40,623 nt of DNA from Candidatus Saccharimonadota bacterium (GTDB taxonomy: Bacteria > Patescibacteriota > Saccharimonadia > Saccharimonadales > Saccharimonadaceae). Position 1 is the first letter of the stretch. Each line of letters opens with the position of its first letter. Positions 1,105-33,281 of the stretch are shown piece by piece. The position numbers were made by a program, and so were the translations under genes. The stretch spans positions 1 through 40,623 of the forward strand of contig WRFU01000005.1 of NCBI GenBank assembly GCA_009778675.1, written 5' to 3'. The notes under the pieces were generated by a model. The model made no database searches. It saw only the letters and a program-made list of their open reading frames with translations, and was not told the DNA's origin.

Positions 1105-3600
1105 ATGAAGCAAGTGGAACGGTTAATAAAATATTTTGTACCAAAGTCATATCGGCTAGAACTGACTTTCAATAAAGCTAAAACCAAGGCTTTTGGCGTA
1201 GTTAATATTGAGGGCACAGCTAAAACGACCAACATAAAACTACATGCTAAAAATTTGAAAATCGAACGTGTTACGGTGCAAAATAAGTCAGTCGAGTTTA
1301 CGCAGCAAAATGACGAATTGCAGCTACATGTACCAAAGGGTTTGATCCATCTTTCTATCACATATAATTTCGAACTACATAAACAACTATATGGCGCTTA
1401 TTTGTCGGAATATAATTATAAGGGAAACATAGAAAAGATTATAACCACCCAATTTGAAAGTCACTATGCGCGTGAAGCTTTGCCATGTATTGATGAGCCA
1501 GCGTCTAAAGCCATGTTCACGCTTACTATTATTAACGAAAGCGTAGACGACATGGCACTGTCGAACATGCCAACGATCCAGGAATGTATTGATCAAGGTC
1601 GTAAGATTTCTAAGTTTGAACAAACTCCACCCATGAGCACGTATTTGCTAGCTTTTATAGTGGGTAAATTCCATAAAAAAACATCTCAGTCCAAACGTGG
1701 TATACAAGTTAATGCCTACTGCAGTTTAGCCCAACCACCAAGCAGTTTAGATTTTGCGCTAAATGTGGCTTGCCAAACTTTAGATTTTTACGAAAGCTAT
1801 TTTGGCACAAAATACCCATTGCCAAAATGTGATCAAGTCGCTCTACCAGACTTTGACGCTGGTGCTATGGAAAACTGGGGTTTGGTAACTTATCGTGAAA
1901 GTGCTATGCTGGTTGACGAAAAATTAACTTCTATTAGCACTAGACGGTATGTTTTAACGGTTATTACGCACGAACTATCACATCAATGGTTTGGTAATTT
2001 GGTCACTATGCAATGGTGGGATGACCTGTGGCTGAATGAAAGTTTTGCTAGCGTTATTGAATATGTGGCGGCTGATCATATACAACCTACTTGGGATATA
2101 TGGCAAGATTTTATAACAGGCGACGTCGTATCGGCGCTGCGTCGTGATTGCGTGCCAGGCGTGCAAGCTGTGCACCAAGATGTTAGTTCACCTGATGAAA
2201 TTGGCACACTGTTTGATGGTGCAATTGTTTATGCCAAAGGTGCACGGCTAATCTATATGTTAATAAAATTAATGGGTGAAGATAAATTTAAAGCTGGGCT
2301 AAAAATGTATTTTAAAAAATTTGCCTACAAAAATACAGTTGGCGATGATTTGTGGGCAATGTTAAATAACTTTACCGATTTTGACGTTAAGCAATTTATG
2401 GATACCTGGATCACGCAGCCTGGTTATCCGGTTGTTGACGTAAAAAACGAAAACGGACAGCTAGAACTGGCTCAAAGCCGCTTTATGGTTGATGGTGACA
2501 CCGATAAATCACTGTGGCCAATCCCACTTGGCGCTCGTGATAATCTGCCCAAACTAATGACCACCAGACAGCAACAGTTTGCTGATGCTAACCAAACTAT
2601 ACGCTTAAACCATGGGGCAGTGTCACATTTTATCACTTGCTATAGTGATGATTTATTTAGTCAGATTTTAGGTAGTATTAATCAAAGCAGCCAGGTTGAT
2701 AATCTTGGGCTGTTAATTGAGCAGTCGCTTTTAGCCAAGTCAGGCAAAACGAAAACCATACAAATTCTGGAATTGCTAAAATATTTTAGCGATGATCAGA
2801 CAGAGGCGGTTTGGAGCATAGTCGGCCTTATGATACGCGATGCACGCGTGTTTATAAGTAAAGATACTCCCGAAGACCTAGCCTTTGATCAGTACATAAA
2901 TACATTAACTACCCAGCAATTTAATCGTCTTGGTTTTGACAAACAGCCTAACGAACCCGAAGAAGACGAAAAACTAAGAGTGTTAATTTATGCTATACGG
3001 CTAAGCGCCGAAGACCAAGCGACGATAAATGATGCTATCAAAAAATTTAATCAGGCCAAAAGCCTGGAAGAGCTAGATAAAAATCAACGGCCTAATTATA
3101 TTTGGACCAAAGTTCGTCACGACGGATCGCCCCAACTTATCAACAGTTTACTAAAAATCTATAAAACTACGGAAAATACGGAGCTACGATCGAGCATATC
3201 ATCTGCCCTTTGCGGTAGCAGAAACAAGCAGGTGATTAGTCAGCTGATACGAGTGCTGCAAGATGGTAAAACAATCCGTAAACAAGATTTATTGTTCTGG
3301 ATAGCTGATTTACTGCGTAATTCTTATGCGCGAGATTTAATTTGGCAACTACTGCGTGACAATTGGCCGTGGGTCGAACAACAATTTGGCAATGATCAAT
3401 CTTACGATTATATACCGCGTTTTGTGGCTGGTAATTTTAAAACCAAGCAGCAGCTAGCAGAATACCGTGCATTGTTCACACCTATGTTAGATGATCCAGT
3501 TTTAACGCGGGTTATTACAATGGGCATTACCGAAATTGAAGCCCGGATTAAGCTAATTGCATCACAAAAAGACGCAGTCGCGAAATATCTTTTGGGTTAA
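1105..3600 (+). CDS. pepN: M1-family zinc aminopeptidase
   Basis: 831 residues, full length for the family. It removes N-terminal amino acids from peptides. The exopeptidase motif GAMENWG is at about residues 253-259 and the zinc site HELSHQWFGN starts at His289; the third ligand lies in LWLNESFAS 18 residues on. A beta-rich N-terminal domain precedes this and a long helical C-terminal half follows. No signal peptide is seen, so it is cytoplasmic and should supply amino acids from imported or internal peptides, which fits a scavenging lifestyle. The ATG sits 8 bases after a TACAAT box without a Shine-Dalgarno. Its TAA overlaps the stop of the convergent RNase J gene by two bases. The pepN symbol is used for the M1 family in general, not as proof of orthology with E. 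coli PepN. Confidence 0.93.
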   Translation: MKQVERLIKYFVPKSYRLELTFNKAKTKAFGVVNIEGTAKTTNIKLHAKNLKIERVTVQNKSVEFTQQNDELQLHVPKGLIHLSITYNFELHKQLYGAYLSEYNYKGNIEKIITTQFESHYAREALPCIDEPASKAMFTLTIINESVDDMALSNMPTIQECIDQGRKISKFEQTPPMSTYLLAFIVGKFHKKTSQSKRGIQVNAYCSLAQPPSSLDFALNVACQTLDFYESYFGTKYPLPKCDQVALPDFDAGAMENWGLVTYRESAMLVDEKLTSISTRRYVLTVITHELSHQWFGNLVTMQWWDDLWLNESFASVIEYVAADHIQPTWDIWQDFITGDVVSALRRDCVPGVQAVHQDVSSPDEIGTLFDGAIVYAKGARLIYMLIKLMGEDKFKAGLKMYFKKFAYKNTVGDDLWAMLNNFTDFDVKQFMDTWITQPGYPVVDVKNENGQLELAQSRFMVDGDTDKSLWPIPLGARDNLPKLMTTRQQQFADANQTIRLNHGAVSHFITCYSDDLFSQILGSINQSSQVDNLGLLIEQSLLAKSGKTKTIQILELLKYFSDDQTEAVWSIVGLMIRDARVFISKDTPEDLAFDQYINTLTTQQFNRLGFDKQPNEPEEDEKLRVLIYAIRLSAEDQATINDAIKKFNQAKSLEELDKNQRPNYIWTKVRHDGSPQLINSLLKIYKTTENTELRSSISSALCGSRNKQVISQLIRVLQDGKTIRKQDLLFWIADLLRNSYARDLIWQLLRDNWPWVEQQFGNDQSYDYIPRFVAGNFKTKQQLAEYRALFTPMLDDPVLTRVITMGITEIEARIKLIASQKDAVAKYLLG

Positions 3601-5597
3601 ACTCTATTTATAACCGGGATAACAATCGGCGTGTGTCCGGTGCTATCGAACAAGATATGCGCCACGTCATCTTTAATCTCTTGTTTTAGAGTAGCAAGAT
3701 CGTTGTCGTCTGGACTAATGCGATCGGTTTTTGCCCGCAAATAATGGCGAATTTTACCAATTAATTCTTCACTGTCGTTAAGATACACAAAAGCACGACT
3801 TACTACATCTGGCGTTTTTACTAATCGGCCAGTCTTTTTATTGATAGTAAGTACGATCATAAAAATACCTTCTTGCGAAATATGTAGCCGGTCTTTGACT
3901 ACTGCGTCGTGCACTTGGTTACCAGAGTTGTCGTATAATTCGCAACCAACTGGTATACGACCAGCTTTGCGGATTGGTTTATCGGGCAAGAATTCTATCA
4001 CGTCGCCATCGTCACACACCAAAATATTTTGGCGTGGAATCCCAGCTACGTTTTCGGCCATTTCAGCATTGTGTTCTAACATATAATACTCGCCGTGATT
4101 AGGTAGATAATTACGCGGCTTTAAAGTTGTAACTAGTTTTACATGATCGTCGAAATAAGCGTGGCCAGACAAGTGCAATGGCCCAATACCATGAATGTGA
4201 GTTTTACCATTTTGAATCACACTTGAACCTTCGCGCATAAGTCCATCAACCGTCGCAACCACATGCGGTTCATTGCCCGGGATAGGGTTACTCGAAAATA
4301 CCACTACGTCAGTCGCTTTAATTTTAATAAAACGATGTGCGCCCGTAACCATACGGTTCAGCACGGCATTCAATTCACCCTGGCTACCAGTACAAATAAT
4401 CATTACGCGATCATCAGGCAACTTTGTGATATCTTCCATTTTTATAATGGTATCTTTAGGTATCTTAATATCACGCGACCTTAGAGCCGATTCTAGGTTA
4501 GTAATCATGCTATAACCAGCAAAAGCAACCTTGCGACCACGTTTGTGGGCTTCTTCTAATGCTAATTGAATACGTAAAATCTGGCTTGAAAAACAACTTA
4601 AAATTACGCGACCATATGGAAAATCATCAAGCACTTTGCCAACGTTTTCGGCAATCGTAAATTCGCTATGTGGGTGCGTGCCGGGCGAATCAATATTGGT
4701 TGAATCGTTAATTAGCACACCAATACCTTCTTTTTGGCTGATGTCGACTAAACGTTCCATGTCAAATTTAGGATAAACCGGATCATTTTCAAAGCGCCAA
4801 TCACCCATAAAAACAATTACACCACTAGGCGTGCGAATAATTATTGACGCATTGCCAGGGATCGAGTGCAAAGTATGCACAAATTCAATTGATAAGTTTT
4901 GGCTAACTTTTATGATTTCATGCTTAAACGGATCTACGGTTATGTAATTCATTTCTGGTTGGTCGTCTAGTTCACTCATCTGTTTTTTAATCATATTAAT
5001 GGTAAAACCAGTGCCGTAAATTGGCGTAGTATTGTTAAAACGCGGCAGCAAATGTTTACAAGCCATAATGTGGTCTAAGTGCGCGTGCGAAAAAGCAATC
5101 GCCTTAACCTTGTTGATATTTTGTTCGATATATTTAATATTAGGTGTCAAATAGTTAATACCAGGGTAATCATCACTAGCGAATAGCGCGCCCATATCTA
5201 ATATGATCATTTCATCTTCGTATTCGATAGCTGTCATATTGTTACCAATGCCAAATTCACCGTAGCCGCCAATTGGCAAAATACGAACCGCGCCTTTAGT
5301 CGGCCGAGCGGCTTTTAGCATTTGGGGCGTAACCTGTTGGCCGTTATAACCATTGTAAACTGATTTATTAACCGGTATCTCGCCTGTAATATGCTGTGTG
5401 GCTTTGGCATTAACATCGCCGTTAGTCATTCGCTGCGCCCGGATCATTTCACCACGACGGGTACTAACCGATAGGTTTACTCGGCGCTTATCAATTACCG
5501 CTTTTTCTTCTTTTTGGGCTTTTAGATCTTTTAATCTTTTTTCGCGTAACGCCAATAATTTAGCCTTACGAATTTCTTCTTCTCTATTATTTTTCAT
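3597..5597 (-). CDS. rnj: Ribonuclease J
   Basis: 666 residues. RNase J is a metallo-beta-lactamase/beta-CASP ribonuclease with endo and 5'-3' exo activity in mRNA decay and rRNA maturation. GGYGEFGIGNNMT at about residue 109 and the metal motif H171-A-H-L-D-H176 are clear, followed by MGDWRFE, TDVVVFSSNPIPGNE, GHA and PNHGEYYML boxes typical of RNase J. About 105 residues precede the catalytic domain; they are rich in Lys, Arg and Glu, as in other RNase J proteins with basic tails. The start has a good Shine-Dalgarno (GGAG, four bases before ATG) and follows a leader of about 70 bases served by two tandem promoters. It converges on the aminopeptidase, with stops overlapping. Confidence 0.95.
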   Translation of the reverse strand: MKNNREEEIRKAKLLALREKRLKDLKAQKEEKAVIDKRRVNLSVSTRRGEMIRAQRMTNGDVNAKATQHITGEIPVNKSVYNGYNGQQVTPQMLKAARPTKGAVRILPIGGYGEFGIGNNMTAIEYEDEMIILDMGALFASDDYPGINYLTPNIKYIEQNINKVKAIAFSHAHLDHIMACKHLLPRFNNTTPIYGTGFTINMIKKQMSELDDQPEMNYITVDPFKHEIIKVSQNLSIEFVHTLHSIPGNASIIIRTPSGVIVFMGDWRFENDPVYPKFDMERLVDISQKEGIGVLINDSTNIDSPGTHPHSEFTIAENVGKVLDDFPYGRVILSCFSSQILRIQLALEEAHKRGRKVAFAGYSMITNLESALRSRDIKIPKDTIIKMEDITKLPDDRVMIICTGSQGELNAVLNRMVTGAHRFIKIKATDVVVFSSNPIPGNEPHVVATVDGLMREGSSVIQNGKTHIHGIGPLHLSGHAYFDDHVKLVTTLKPRNYLPNHGEYYMLEHNAEMAENVAGIPRQNILVCDDGDVIEFLPDKPIRKAGRIPVGCELYDNSGNQVHDAVVKDRLHISQEGIFMIVLTINKKTGRLVKTPDVVSRAFVYLNDSEELIGKIRHYLRAKTDRISPDDNDLATLKQEIKDDVAHILFDSTGHTPIVIPVINRV

Positions 5598-5719: not shown

Positions 5720-5748
5720 ATTGTAGCACACTGCTTTTGATATGTCAA
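5720..5748 (-). promoter_or_regulatory. Upstream promoter on the RNase J side
   Basis: On the minus strand: TTGACA (5748-5743), a 17-base spacer ending in GTGTGC, TACAAT (5725-5720). This is a near-consensus sigma-70 promoter in tandem with the proximal one. The stretch is almost identical to the promoter at 10325-10353 on the plus strand. Confidence 0.75.
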
Positions 5749-5821: not shown

Positions 5822-5852
5822 TTGCGTTTTTCATTAGGGGGGGGGGTATGAT
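5822..5852 (+). promoter_or_regulatory. Promoter with G10 tract in the -35/-10 spacer
   Basis: TTGCGT (5822-5827), then a 19-base spacer whose last ten bases are G (5837-5846), then TATGAT (5847-5852). A start near 5859 would give a leader of about 37 bases and a Shine-Dalgarno AGGAG (5882-5886) before ATG 5896. Spacer length would change with every G gained or lost. Confidence 0.6.
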
Positions 5853-5895
5853 TAAGCTGTTTTCTTTGCACGTTTACAGTTAGGAGTTGGTGAAT

Positions 5896-6624
5896 ATGAT
5901 AATTAACGGTTTGCTAGTGGCAGGTCTTGTTATTGCTGTATTTATCGCATTGTTTGCGTTAGGTTGCGCGTTTGAAGCAAACTGGGATACTAAACCTGCC
6001 ATTATTGTGGCAATTGTATGTGTAATAGTTGCATGGGGCATTTCTTGCGGCGTTGCGCTGGTGCTTACTTCATTGGTTGGGGATGAGAGTTGTGATAATA
6101 CAGTAACATATCAAAAAGCTGCTAGAGAGTTTGGTTTCTCATCGGGTAATAAATACCCATTGATACTTGGCGCGCGCAGTGGTGGCAGCTCAGGTTATAT
6201 CAATGGAACATTTTATTTGGGCATGTTCGGTGGTAGTGGAAATATCGAGGGTAAAACTTCTCCAACATCAATGTTTCCGGTTAGCTTTGAATATGGTGAT
6301 GCAACAAATATGTTGGATATACCTACGGTTAACACTACTTTTAAAAAAGTTGCAAGCCAAGCCGATACTGGTGTAGTTATTAAGCTAAATACAGAGCAAT
6401 ATGCCACTGCGATATCAACTACTACTACCAAACATCGGCGCGGCAGTATAAGTTGGTGGAATTTGTTATTATATTACACCGACATTGCATCTGACCCTGT
6501 AACTGTCAAAAGTACGCTGTTTAAAGAAAAAGGCTTGGCGCCGATTATACAGCAGGGCATCAGCAGCTGCACAGTGTATCTGACGTCCGAGCAGTACGAC
6601 CAACTGCTCGGCAAAATTAAATGA
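5896..6624 (+). CDS. Unknown membrane-anchored protein, possibly phase-variable
   Basis: 242 residues from ATG 5896, chosen because AGGAG lies nine bases upstream; TTG 5887 and GTG 5890 are in frame but too close to it. Two hydrophobic helices fill roughly residues 2-23 and 34-59. About 180 residues follow that look extracytoplasmic: Gly/Ser-rich (GARSGGSSGYINGTFYLGMF), many Thr, a Trp-Trp pair and Cys near residue 61 and near the C-terminus. I do not recognise the family. It stands alone between the poly-G promoter and a terminator. A surface-exposed product under an on/off promoter would fit an antigen or contact factor; this is inference. Confidence 0.75.
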   Translation: MIINGLLVAGLVIAVFIALFALGCAFEANWDTKPAIIVAIVCVIVAWGISCGVALVLTSLVGDESCDNTVTYQKAAREFGFSSGNKYPLILGARSGGSSGYINGTFYLGMFGGSGNIEGKTSPTSMFPVSFEYGDATNMLDIPTVNTTFKKVASQADTGVVIKLNTEQYATAISTTTTKHRRGSISWWNLLLYYTDIASDPVTVKSTLFKEKGLAPIIQQGISSCTVYLTSEQYDQLLGKIK

Positions 6625-6644
6625 TTCAGCAAAGAAAACACGCT

Positions 6645-6667
6645 GGGGCGGCTTTTTAAGGCCGCCC
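6645..6667 (+). terminator. Rho-independent terminator
   Basis: GGGCGGC and GCCGCCC arms around a short T/A-rich loop, followed by TAAGTTTTT, 20 bases after the stop of the membrane protein gene. Confidence 0.75.
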
Positions 6668-6692
6668 TAAGTTTTTGTGGTAAAATTAGTTT

Positions 6693-20664: not shown

Positions 20665-21300
20665 ATGGACAACTTTGAATCAGTTTTACGTTTTTATAAC
20701 CTGGCGAACAAACTGAAAACAACCATTCGTACCGGCTGGCAAATTTGGGATATTAAGGCACCGCGCCTGGAAAGTGTGGCCGAGCACATTTACGGCACGC
20801 AAATGTTAGCAATTGCTTTATGCTCCGAACTAAAGCTAAGAGTCGACCTTACCCGGGTTGTTTTAATGTTAGCAGTGCACGAGCTAGGCGAGATTGTGGT
20901 TGGTGACATCACGATGTTTGACGACATTAGCGTTGAAGATAAACATGCTAAAGAGCTGGTGGCTGTTCAGAAAGTTCTATCAGGGCTTAACATGGCGCAA
21001 CAGATAGAGGACATATATACAGAGTTTGAAGCTAACAAAACTACCGAGGCACGTTTTTGCAAGCAGGTTGATAAGTTAGAAGCTTGTTTGCAGGCTAAGA
21101 TTTACGATGAGGCTGGCTATGCCGATTTTACGTCAGTATGTAAAAAAGACGCTGTTGAAACTAGCCGGCTACAATTTATAAAAGATGGCGAAATATCGTT
21201 CTCTCAAGCCTGGCTTGATAATGCTATTGATACGGTTGGCTTCAGGGGGGGGTGCTGGAATTTGCCAAATGGCTTAAAGAAAATGAAAAGAGTAGTTTAA
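20665..21300 (+). CDS. HD-domain hydrolase (YfbR/COG1896-like), 3' end in a shifted frame
   Basis: 211 residues as read. An HD-fold phosphohydrolase with metal ligands in VAEHIYGT (H41), AVHELGE (H72-E73) and KQVDKLEACLQ; relatives are 5'-deoxynucleotidases that clear dNMPs. The last 15 residues look wrong (CWNLPNGLKKMKRVV). They follow a G8 run at 21245-21252. One more G would give a natural helix, VLEFAKWLKENEKSSLKIKG, ending at TAG 21324-21326, two bases before the terminator and 220 residues in total. So either the tract is phase-variable or the assembly lost a G. The gene is tightly joined to tyrS. Confidence 0.85.
   Translation: MDNFESVLRFYNLANKLKTTIRTGWQIWDIKAPRLESVAEHIYGTQMLAIALCSELKLRVDLTRVVLMLAVHELGEIVVGDITMFDDISVEDKHAKELVAVQKVLSGLNMAQQIEDIYTEFEANKTTEARFCKQVDKLEACLQAKIYDEAGYADFTSVCKKDAVETSRLQFIKDGEISFSQAWLDNAIDTVGFRGGCWNLPNGLKKMKRVV
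21245..21252 (+). repeat. G8 homopolymer in the HD hydrolase gene
   Basis: Eight G after TTCA. With G9 the frame continues to a better C-terminus; with G7 it stops after about ten codons. One of five long G tracts in the window. Confidence 0.9.
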
Positions 21301-21381: not shown

Positions 21382-21964
21382 TTATCCGACGATAAACCCA
21401 CTCGGCTGATCCATCATACCGCCTTTGCAAGTCATGATGTCACGGTAGATTGCTCGGATAGCTGAGGCCATCCACTCTGCGATCATTTCATCGAAGACGG
21501 CTTGTACACCGCTGAATCCGATGATAATGCCGCCAGGCATGATCGTACTGCCGCCCCACTTAGTATCCCCGGCATCGTATAGATAGGGGTATTGGGTCTG
21601 GACAAGTGAACTTGCCATACCTGTTTTGAGCGATACAAATGCTTTGGCTAATGCCAATTCGCGGTATTTGGCAGCGTCTTTGGCTTTCGGGTCGATTTCA
21701 GCGGTAAAGCAAACATAGTTTTCTAAATCATCTTCTTCGCCACCCACAACGGCAGAGAACAATATACCTTCTCTGACATCAGCACGTGGTCCTAAGACGA
21801 CTACACTCCCAGCACAACGATTGAAAATTTCGTTCTGGGGGGGGGGCAGCATTCTTAACAGCTGGCAGGATCATTTCCCATGCCTTTTCGCACACTTCGG
21901 AAAACTCAGGAAACTTGACAGATACAGGGGATTCCAGTTTATCAGGCGCAAGACCATTAGACAT
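21382..21964 (-). CDS. GlcG/HbpS-like protein split by a C10 tract
   Basis: The start at 21964 (MSNGLAPDKLE) has an excellent Shine-Dalgarno (AGAGGTGAT). After about 40 residues the frame runs into ten C (21846-21837, minus strand), beyond which it soon ends; the remaining 150 codons are open in the +1 frame to TAA 21382. With C9 the two parts fuse into about 193 residues. The C-terminal half has YRELALAKAFVSL, GGSTIMPGGIIIGFSGV and DEMIAEWMASAI, which resembles the GlcG/HbpS (DUF336) fold: a KA helix, a GG turn, a GxIxGxSGV strand and a DExxA helix. Function is unknown; relatives bind haem or small ligands. The split looks like an off state of a phase-variable gene or an assembly error. Confidence 0.6.
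21837..21846. repeat. G10/C10 homopolymer inside the GlcG-like gene
   Basis: Ten G on the plus strand, encoding Pro codons in the minus-strand gene. Loss of one base, or gain of two, puts the two halves in the same frame. Confidence 0.92.
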
Positions 21965-32015: not shown

Positions 32016-32024
32016 GGGGGGGGG
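32016..32024. repeat. G9 tract upstream of the DUF4190 gene
   Basis: Nine G between the divergent DUF4190 and L25 genes. On the minus strand the C9 run lies seven bases upstream of the TATAAT of the DUF4190 gene, where the -35/-10 spacer should be. No convincing -35 is seen (TTGCCC would be at 13 bases). It is about 30 bases upstream of the L25 -10. Confidence 0.85.
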
Positions 32025-32797: not shown

Positions 32798-32828
32798 TTG
32801 ATTTTCTGACATGGGGGGGGGGTATACT
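32798..32828 (+). promoter_or_regulatory. Promoter with G10 tract in the -35/-10 spacer
   Basis: TTGATT (32798-32803), a 19-base spacer whose last ten bases are G (32813-32822), TATACT (32823-32828), then six bases to ATG 32835. Same geometry as at 5822-5852. With G8 the spacer would be the optimal 17. Confidence 0.65.
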
Positions 32829-32834
32829 ACCTGA

Positions 32835-33281
32835 ATGATAGTGACCCTAGCGCTAGCGATTATAGCCGGAATCCTCTATACGTTATTTGATTTATTTGTT
32901 GCCCAGGCCACAGGTAAAATCGGCGATGGATTATCAGCTTTTATATATAATGGCCTTGGTGCAGTGTTACCTCTGATCATCTATTTTGTTTCTAAAGTCA
33001 AAAGTGGTGGTAAAACTACTGTAGCCGGTATAGTTTATTCAATATTGGCCGGTGTCATAATTGCTATTTTCGCGTTAATTTTAATGAGGGCTTTTGCTTC
33101 TAATGGCGGTGATAATGTAGCATTCGTATTGCCATTGATCTATGGAATTGTAGTGGTATTAAGTGCAGTGGCTGGAGTATTCCTATTTAAGGAACATCTA
33201 TCATTGCTTGGTATTATTGGAGTTATAGTCACAGCTGCTGGCATTGGGTTAGTGGTTTTTGCTAAAATGAAAACAGCTTAA
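32835..33281 (+). CDS. DMT/EamA-type half transporter
   Basis: 148 residues with five hydrophobic helices. The end, IYGIVVVLSAVAGVFLFKEHLSLLGIIGVIVTAAGIGLV, is the usual close of an EamA/EmrE-type repeat (here shown as one continuous region, helices 4 and 5 with the KEH turn between). Only one repeat is present, so it would have to dimerise, as small multidrug exporters do. Substrate unknown. The gene is predicted leaderless, and its promoter spacer contains the G10 tract, so its expression may switch. Confidence 0.75.
   Translation: MIVTLALAIIAGILYTLFDLFVAQATGKIGDGLSAFIYNGLGAVLPLIIYFVSKVKSGGKTTVAGIVYSILAGVIIAIFALILMRAFASNGGDNVAFVLPLIYGIVVVLSAVAGVFLFKEHLSLLGIIGVIVTAAGIGLVVFAKMKTA

Follow-up and report, generated by a model that had tools for sequence, protein, structure and literature searches.

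A run of ten guanines between the -35 and -10 elements of a Saccharibacterial promoter very probably acts as a slippage switch, set within the core promoter of a gene for a surface or membrane protein. The run lies in a 40,623-nt stretch of DNA (the window) from a Candidatus Saccharimonadota genome of the order Saccharimonadales (825 kb, 39 contigs, 95.7% complete). The recurrence of the same design before surface-protein genes across Saccharibacteria strongly suggests that slippage in G-run length turns such genes on and off at random in these bacteria.

The focal promoter reads TTGCGT, nine nucleotides (TTTTCATTA), G10 and TATGAT, exactly the TTGCGT-N19-TATGAT arrangement with ten terminal spacer guanines of the original prediction (Table 1). 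The present spacer of 19 nt would shorten to 17 nt at G8 (N9 plus G8), and the nine nucleotides between the -35 element and the tract are the commonest such distance among related tract promoters. Transcription of the focal gene would start near position 5859. The -35 element agrees with TTGACA at only three of six positions and the promoter was absent from the list produced by a generic scan limited to 16–18-nt spacers; with a -35 this weak and missed by the scan, the single site is insufficient and the focal case rests on the recurring architecture. The gene on the 5′ side (3597–5597, minus strand) is divergent and has its own promoter, and no other usable plus-strand promoter was found between it and the focal gene. 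An alternative plus-strand promoter at 5873–5900 was rejected on the grounds that it overlaps the start codon. The terminator behind the focal gene makes it a single-gene unit.

Table 1. Tract loci and associated elements in the window
Feature	Position	Strand	Remarks
Divergent promoter TTGACA-17-TACAAT of the upstream gene	5720–5748	-	Tract-free and ordinary; for comparison
-35 element TTGCGT	5822–5827	+	Sequence; N9 before tract
G10 tract in promoter spacer, proposed length switch	5837–5846	+	The genome has 25 tracts of G≥9, this one included
-10 element TATGAT	5847–5852	+	Sequence; abuts the G10 tract
AGGAG ribosome-binding site	5882–5886	+	9 nt 5′ of ATG 5896
242-aa membrane protein	5896–6624	+	Two N-terminal helices, ~180-aa C-terminal domain
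Intrinsic terminator 3′ of the 242-aa gene	6644–6669	+	
G8 tract late in an HD-type gene	21245–21252	+	
C10 tract early in a gene	21837–21846	-	Coding-type tract, apparently OFF
G9 upstream of the rplY (L25) promoter region	32016–32024	+	Outside any spacer
-35 element TTGATT, second tract promoter	32798–32803	+	
Second G10 spacer tract	32813–32822	+	N9-G10, 19 nt
-10 element TATACT, second tract promoter	32823–32828	+	
148-aa multi-helix membrane protein	32835–33281	+	Weak EamA-like match; behind the second tract promoter

The downstream gene had been described as encoding an unrecognised protein with two helices and a large Gly/Ser/Thr-rich outer domain. With ATG 5896 and its AGGAG motif preferred to TTG 5887, the product is 242 amino acids long and has no family in Pfam or NCBIfam. 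Two N-terminal membrane helices are predicted, and structure prediction without an alignment yields just two helices at a mean pLDDT of 44. The C-terminal domain is moderately rich in glycine, serine and threonine (32% of residues). Diverged homologues (20–30% identity) occur in 6 of 150 other genomes of the family, and none of the six has a tract. All six carry a cysteine pair in the C-terminal domain that is missing from the window's copy; this pair suggests that the domain lies outside the cell. The description thus stood for the helices and the lack of a known family and, in weaker form, for the composition; an outer location may be read from the homologues.

Long homopolymers in the window are made of G alone. 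G runs reach length 6 twice and 7 never, and then 8, 9, 10, 10 and 10, while C runs stop at 5, only a single A run reaches 8, and A and T runs otherwise stay short. The source genome as a whole has 30 tracts of G≥7, of which 25 are G≥9 and very few are 7–8 long; this hump at 9–10 is the look of loci kept for slippage. By our own tally, 14 of the 25 are intergenic, although 92% of the window is coding according to its curated gene list (P = 1e-9). Many tracts are inside genes. At the C10 site, an upstream Shine–Dalgarno/ATG enters the tract in one frame and a 150-codon body follows in another, and the gene is apparently switched off in this assembly. At the G8 site, two reading frames offer alternative C-termini, that of the other frame ending GVLEFAKWLKENEKSS... 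Rfam returned nothing in five tract loci. As a separate observation, two contig ends (L022 at the end of G000:C6 and L032 at the start of G000:C19) carry similar, non-identical sequence around a G10 and a G11, which may reflect a strain mixture or paralogues.

We scored a tract as promoter-associated when a TTG-type -35 preceded it and a TANNNT -10 (at least 4/6) followed it, the two elements being 16–22 nt apart. At least 7 of the 25 G≥9 tracts of the source genome lie in such spacers, both window sites included, and neither set of control flanks, reverse-complemented or reversed, gave a single case. Of positions drawn at random from the regions upstream of genes, 3.5% fall in a spacer (P = 2e-5 for the source-genome tracts); when the tract also had to end three bases or fewer from the -10 element, six of the 25 remained (P = 1e-6). 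A stricter -35 (at least 4/6) retained 2 of 25, which is not significant (P = 0.08); few tracts pass because the -35 elements of this genome are of the TTGC/TTGT kind, and the claim consequently rests on the relaxed criterion together with the relatives. In the relative G033, 14 of 21 tracts lie in promoter spacers (P = 1e-14). By the same test, the tracts of G003 and G009 are not enriched in promoter spacers as a group. When the 84 distinct tract/-10 loci from all the DNA stretches taken around tracts were pooled, a TTG -35 (at least 4/6) was present at 54 (64%), compared with 11% with shuffled flanks.

The spacer lengths of these promoters are unusual for the lineage. In the same DNA, 119 of 176 tract-free TTGACW/TATAHT promoters have a 17-nt spacer, 14 have 16 nt and 6 have 18 nt, in agreement with the earlier proposal that the focal promoter would reach its optimum at G8. 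Among the 54 tract promoters with a good -35, 15 have spacers of 14–15 nt, 6 of 16–17 nt, 30 of 18–20 nt and 3 of at least 22 nt, and only 3 are at 17 nt, a distribution in which fully contracted states are under-counted because tracts shorter than G7–G8 would escape detection. The subset found solely by scanning for G8-TATNNT gives 3 of 26 at 17 nt (Fisher P = 5e-8). Most tract promoters, in their consensus state, are thus one or a few slips off the optimum, which the A-form-like geometry of poly-G could itself shift to 18 nt.

Tract length differs among otherwise similar promoters within single genomes. The promoters of three related giant surface proteins in G063, the nearest relative, keep N9 with G9, G9 and G8, and similar promoters in G033 carry G10, G12 and G13; overall, tract promoters range from G8 to G19 within the same flanking layout. 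Most tracts in G063 are G9 (N9-G9). In G003, coding tracts of 9–14 occur in paralogous secreted proteins.

Genes downstream of tract promoters mostly encode secreted or membrane proteins. In the source genome they include several membrane proteins, the window's two among them, and four secreted proteins related by pairwise BLAST (L103, L105, L108 and L118); a C-terminal region is common to three of the four, two contain TIG domains and one of those two also has RCC1 repeats. The poly-G promoters of G033 (L158, L161 and L162; L149, L153, L159, L164 and L166) precede pilin-like proteins and collagen-like MTRLPTPG proteins, with at least four type IV pilin-like and six collagen-like proteins among the targets of that genome. 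The targets in G063 are TIG proteins and other secreted giants related to the source genome's (L118 versus L335, E = 1e-35). A further promoter, TTGACT-N6-G10-CG-TTTAAT (L119:2620-4396, G000:C30), stands before a 464-nt leader and a retron-like reverse transcriptase. The leader is strongly folded, with near-complementary ends (GGTGAGGAGTT and AACTCTCCTCACC), and the locus is possibly a phase-variable retron. A second reverse transcriptase (L112:1046-2015, G000:C17) is split at a G9 into two open reading frames in different frames.

A scan of 393 genomes of the order found 90 sites, in 43 of the genomes, at which a G8 abuts TATNNT, compared with 2 occurrences of the reversed pattern; in a sample of the phylum only 5 genomes outside Saccharimonadales contain G8-TATAAT. 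G≥9 tracts are patchy, with none in most relatives and 12–61 in some. By agreement of tract coordinates with the named records, G293 is Ca. Nanosyncoccus alces and G063 is the termite-gut metagenome-assembled genome Cf509_bin11. The window's NusA has its nearest named relatives among Saccharibacteria of animal guts. The closest two NusA sequences (JAIRRY010000021 and JAIROX010000002, 79% identity; L187 and L188) are labelled Nomurabacteria, probably wrongly, and their isolate names point to termite guts. The genomes compared include no congeneric species. mutS1 was absent from all 61 genomes examined, with a positive control. Lack of MutS would favour slippage, but because the gene is missing from every genome sampled it cannot explain the patchiness of the tracts, and we rejected its loss as the reason why particular genomes have them.

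The original prediction placed the focal locus with the transcriptional phase variation of porA and opc. This reading is supported by the -35/tract/-10 geometry, which recurs at several further loci in this genome and at dozens across the order, by the avoidance of the lineage's 17-nt optimum and the differing tract lengths of related promoters that share N9, and by the surface-type targets. We infer that in living cells polymerase slippage would alter the number of guanines and hence the distance between the -35 and -10 elements; the promoter would be strong when this distance is 17 nt (G8 at the focal site) or close to it, and weak at 18–20 nt. A clonal population would then contain both cells that express the gene and cells that do not, with products that are presumably exposed at the surface. 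The focal locus would be one member of a poly-G contingency set, with some tracts in promoter spacers and others within coding sequence; promoters of this design recur in other members of Saccharimonadales. The benefit may be that cells differ in how they attach to the host bacterium, or that some escape phage. With less assurance than for the focal switch, we consider it reasonably likely that in these obligate epibionts, with very small genomes and no MutS, poly-G promoters across the order stochastically switch host-attachment proteins (type IV pilins, collagen-like proteins and TIG/RCC1 proteins) and also a retron-like element, and that every population is a mosaic of host-binding states.

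Three other explanations each appear less likely than a slippage switch. The G tract might be a fixed promoter element, acting through DNA shape or bound by a regulator or a variant sigma factor, and would then define a surface-gene regulon without switching. Such an element would fit the functional coherence of the targets and the prevalence of N9-G9 among G063 tract promoters. We nonetheless regard it as improbable, as lengths from G8 to G19 occur in the same flanking layout, similar promoters in one genome differ in G number alone, and a static element leaves unexplained the G tracts that lie within genes of that genome and break their reading frames.

The tracts might instead be meaningless, with G runs growing anywhere once mismatch repair is lost. 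The lack of mutS1 across the order as sampled and the many source-genome tracts inside genes accord with such neutral growth; yet most relatives without MutS have no such tracts, the tracts lie between genes and immediately ahead of a -10 element much more often than this account would allow, and the long runs in the window are confined to G, A and T runs being short, so that we give this account little credence. Least probable of all, and only barely credible, is an artefact in the form of false poly-G from two-colour sequencing chemistry or repeats collapsed in assembly. The genomes are mostly metagenome-assembled and contigs end at a few of the tracts (L022, L032, L151 and L160), but most tracts are bordered on either side by long unique sequence and have a precise place relative to the -35 and -10 elements, and they recur in independent projects, including that of Ca. 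Nanosyncoccus alces.

Slippage-driven phase variation is known mainly from animal pathogens and commensals. The poly-G phasome of Campylobacter comprises roughly two dozen G9–G10 tracts per small genome, both intergenic and coding. The source genome resembles this phasome in tract number, tract length and mixed intergenic and coding placement; it differs in the large share of tracts located exactly in core-promoter spacers, above all in G033 and G063. In Neisseria meningitidis, porA, opc and fetA carry a homopolymeric tract between the -35 and -10 elements; its length is believed to govern how the sigma factor binds and how much of the surface protein is made (PMC2791445). The focal tract occupies the same position, whereas the phylum and genes are unrelated, many loci here share one design, and most tract promoters are at least 1 nt off the lineage's 17-nt optimum. 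The nearest report that we found from the candidate phyla radiation (CPR) concerns a variable surface-protein locus in a Gracilibacterium, with synonymous variation in a 9-mer coding repeat (PMC6851277); unlike the G tracts described here, that repeat is neither in a promoter nor a homopolymer. Our search for phase variation of this kind in Saccharibacteria, TM7, Patescibacteria or CPR covered open-access reports and found none. The mechanism is already known; what appears to be new is its presence in this lineage, how widely it occurs there, the recurrent N9-G9/10 design and the genes that it targets. If such switching is widespread in ultra-small epibionts, it would offer a concrete mechanism for differences in host range and attachment between strains and cells, and the genes behind the tracts would form a ready list of adhesin candidates.

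Two further patterns were observed among the collected loci. Poly-G promoters also stand before soluble proteins at L277, L279, L281, L286 and L287, several of which share a GWESVA/GWDVVS-like motif near the N-terminus. In G009 (L178–L186), an element found repeatedly between genes carries a C9 or G9 run together with the conserved flank CCCACACC...TATATCA.
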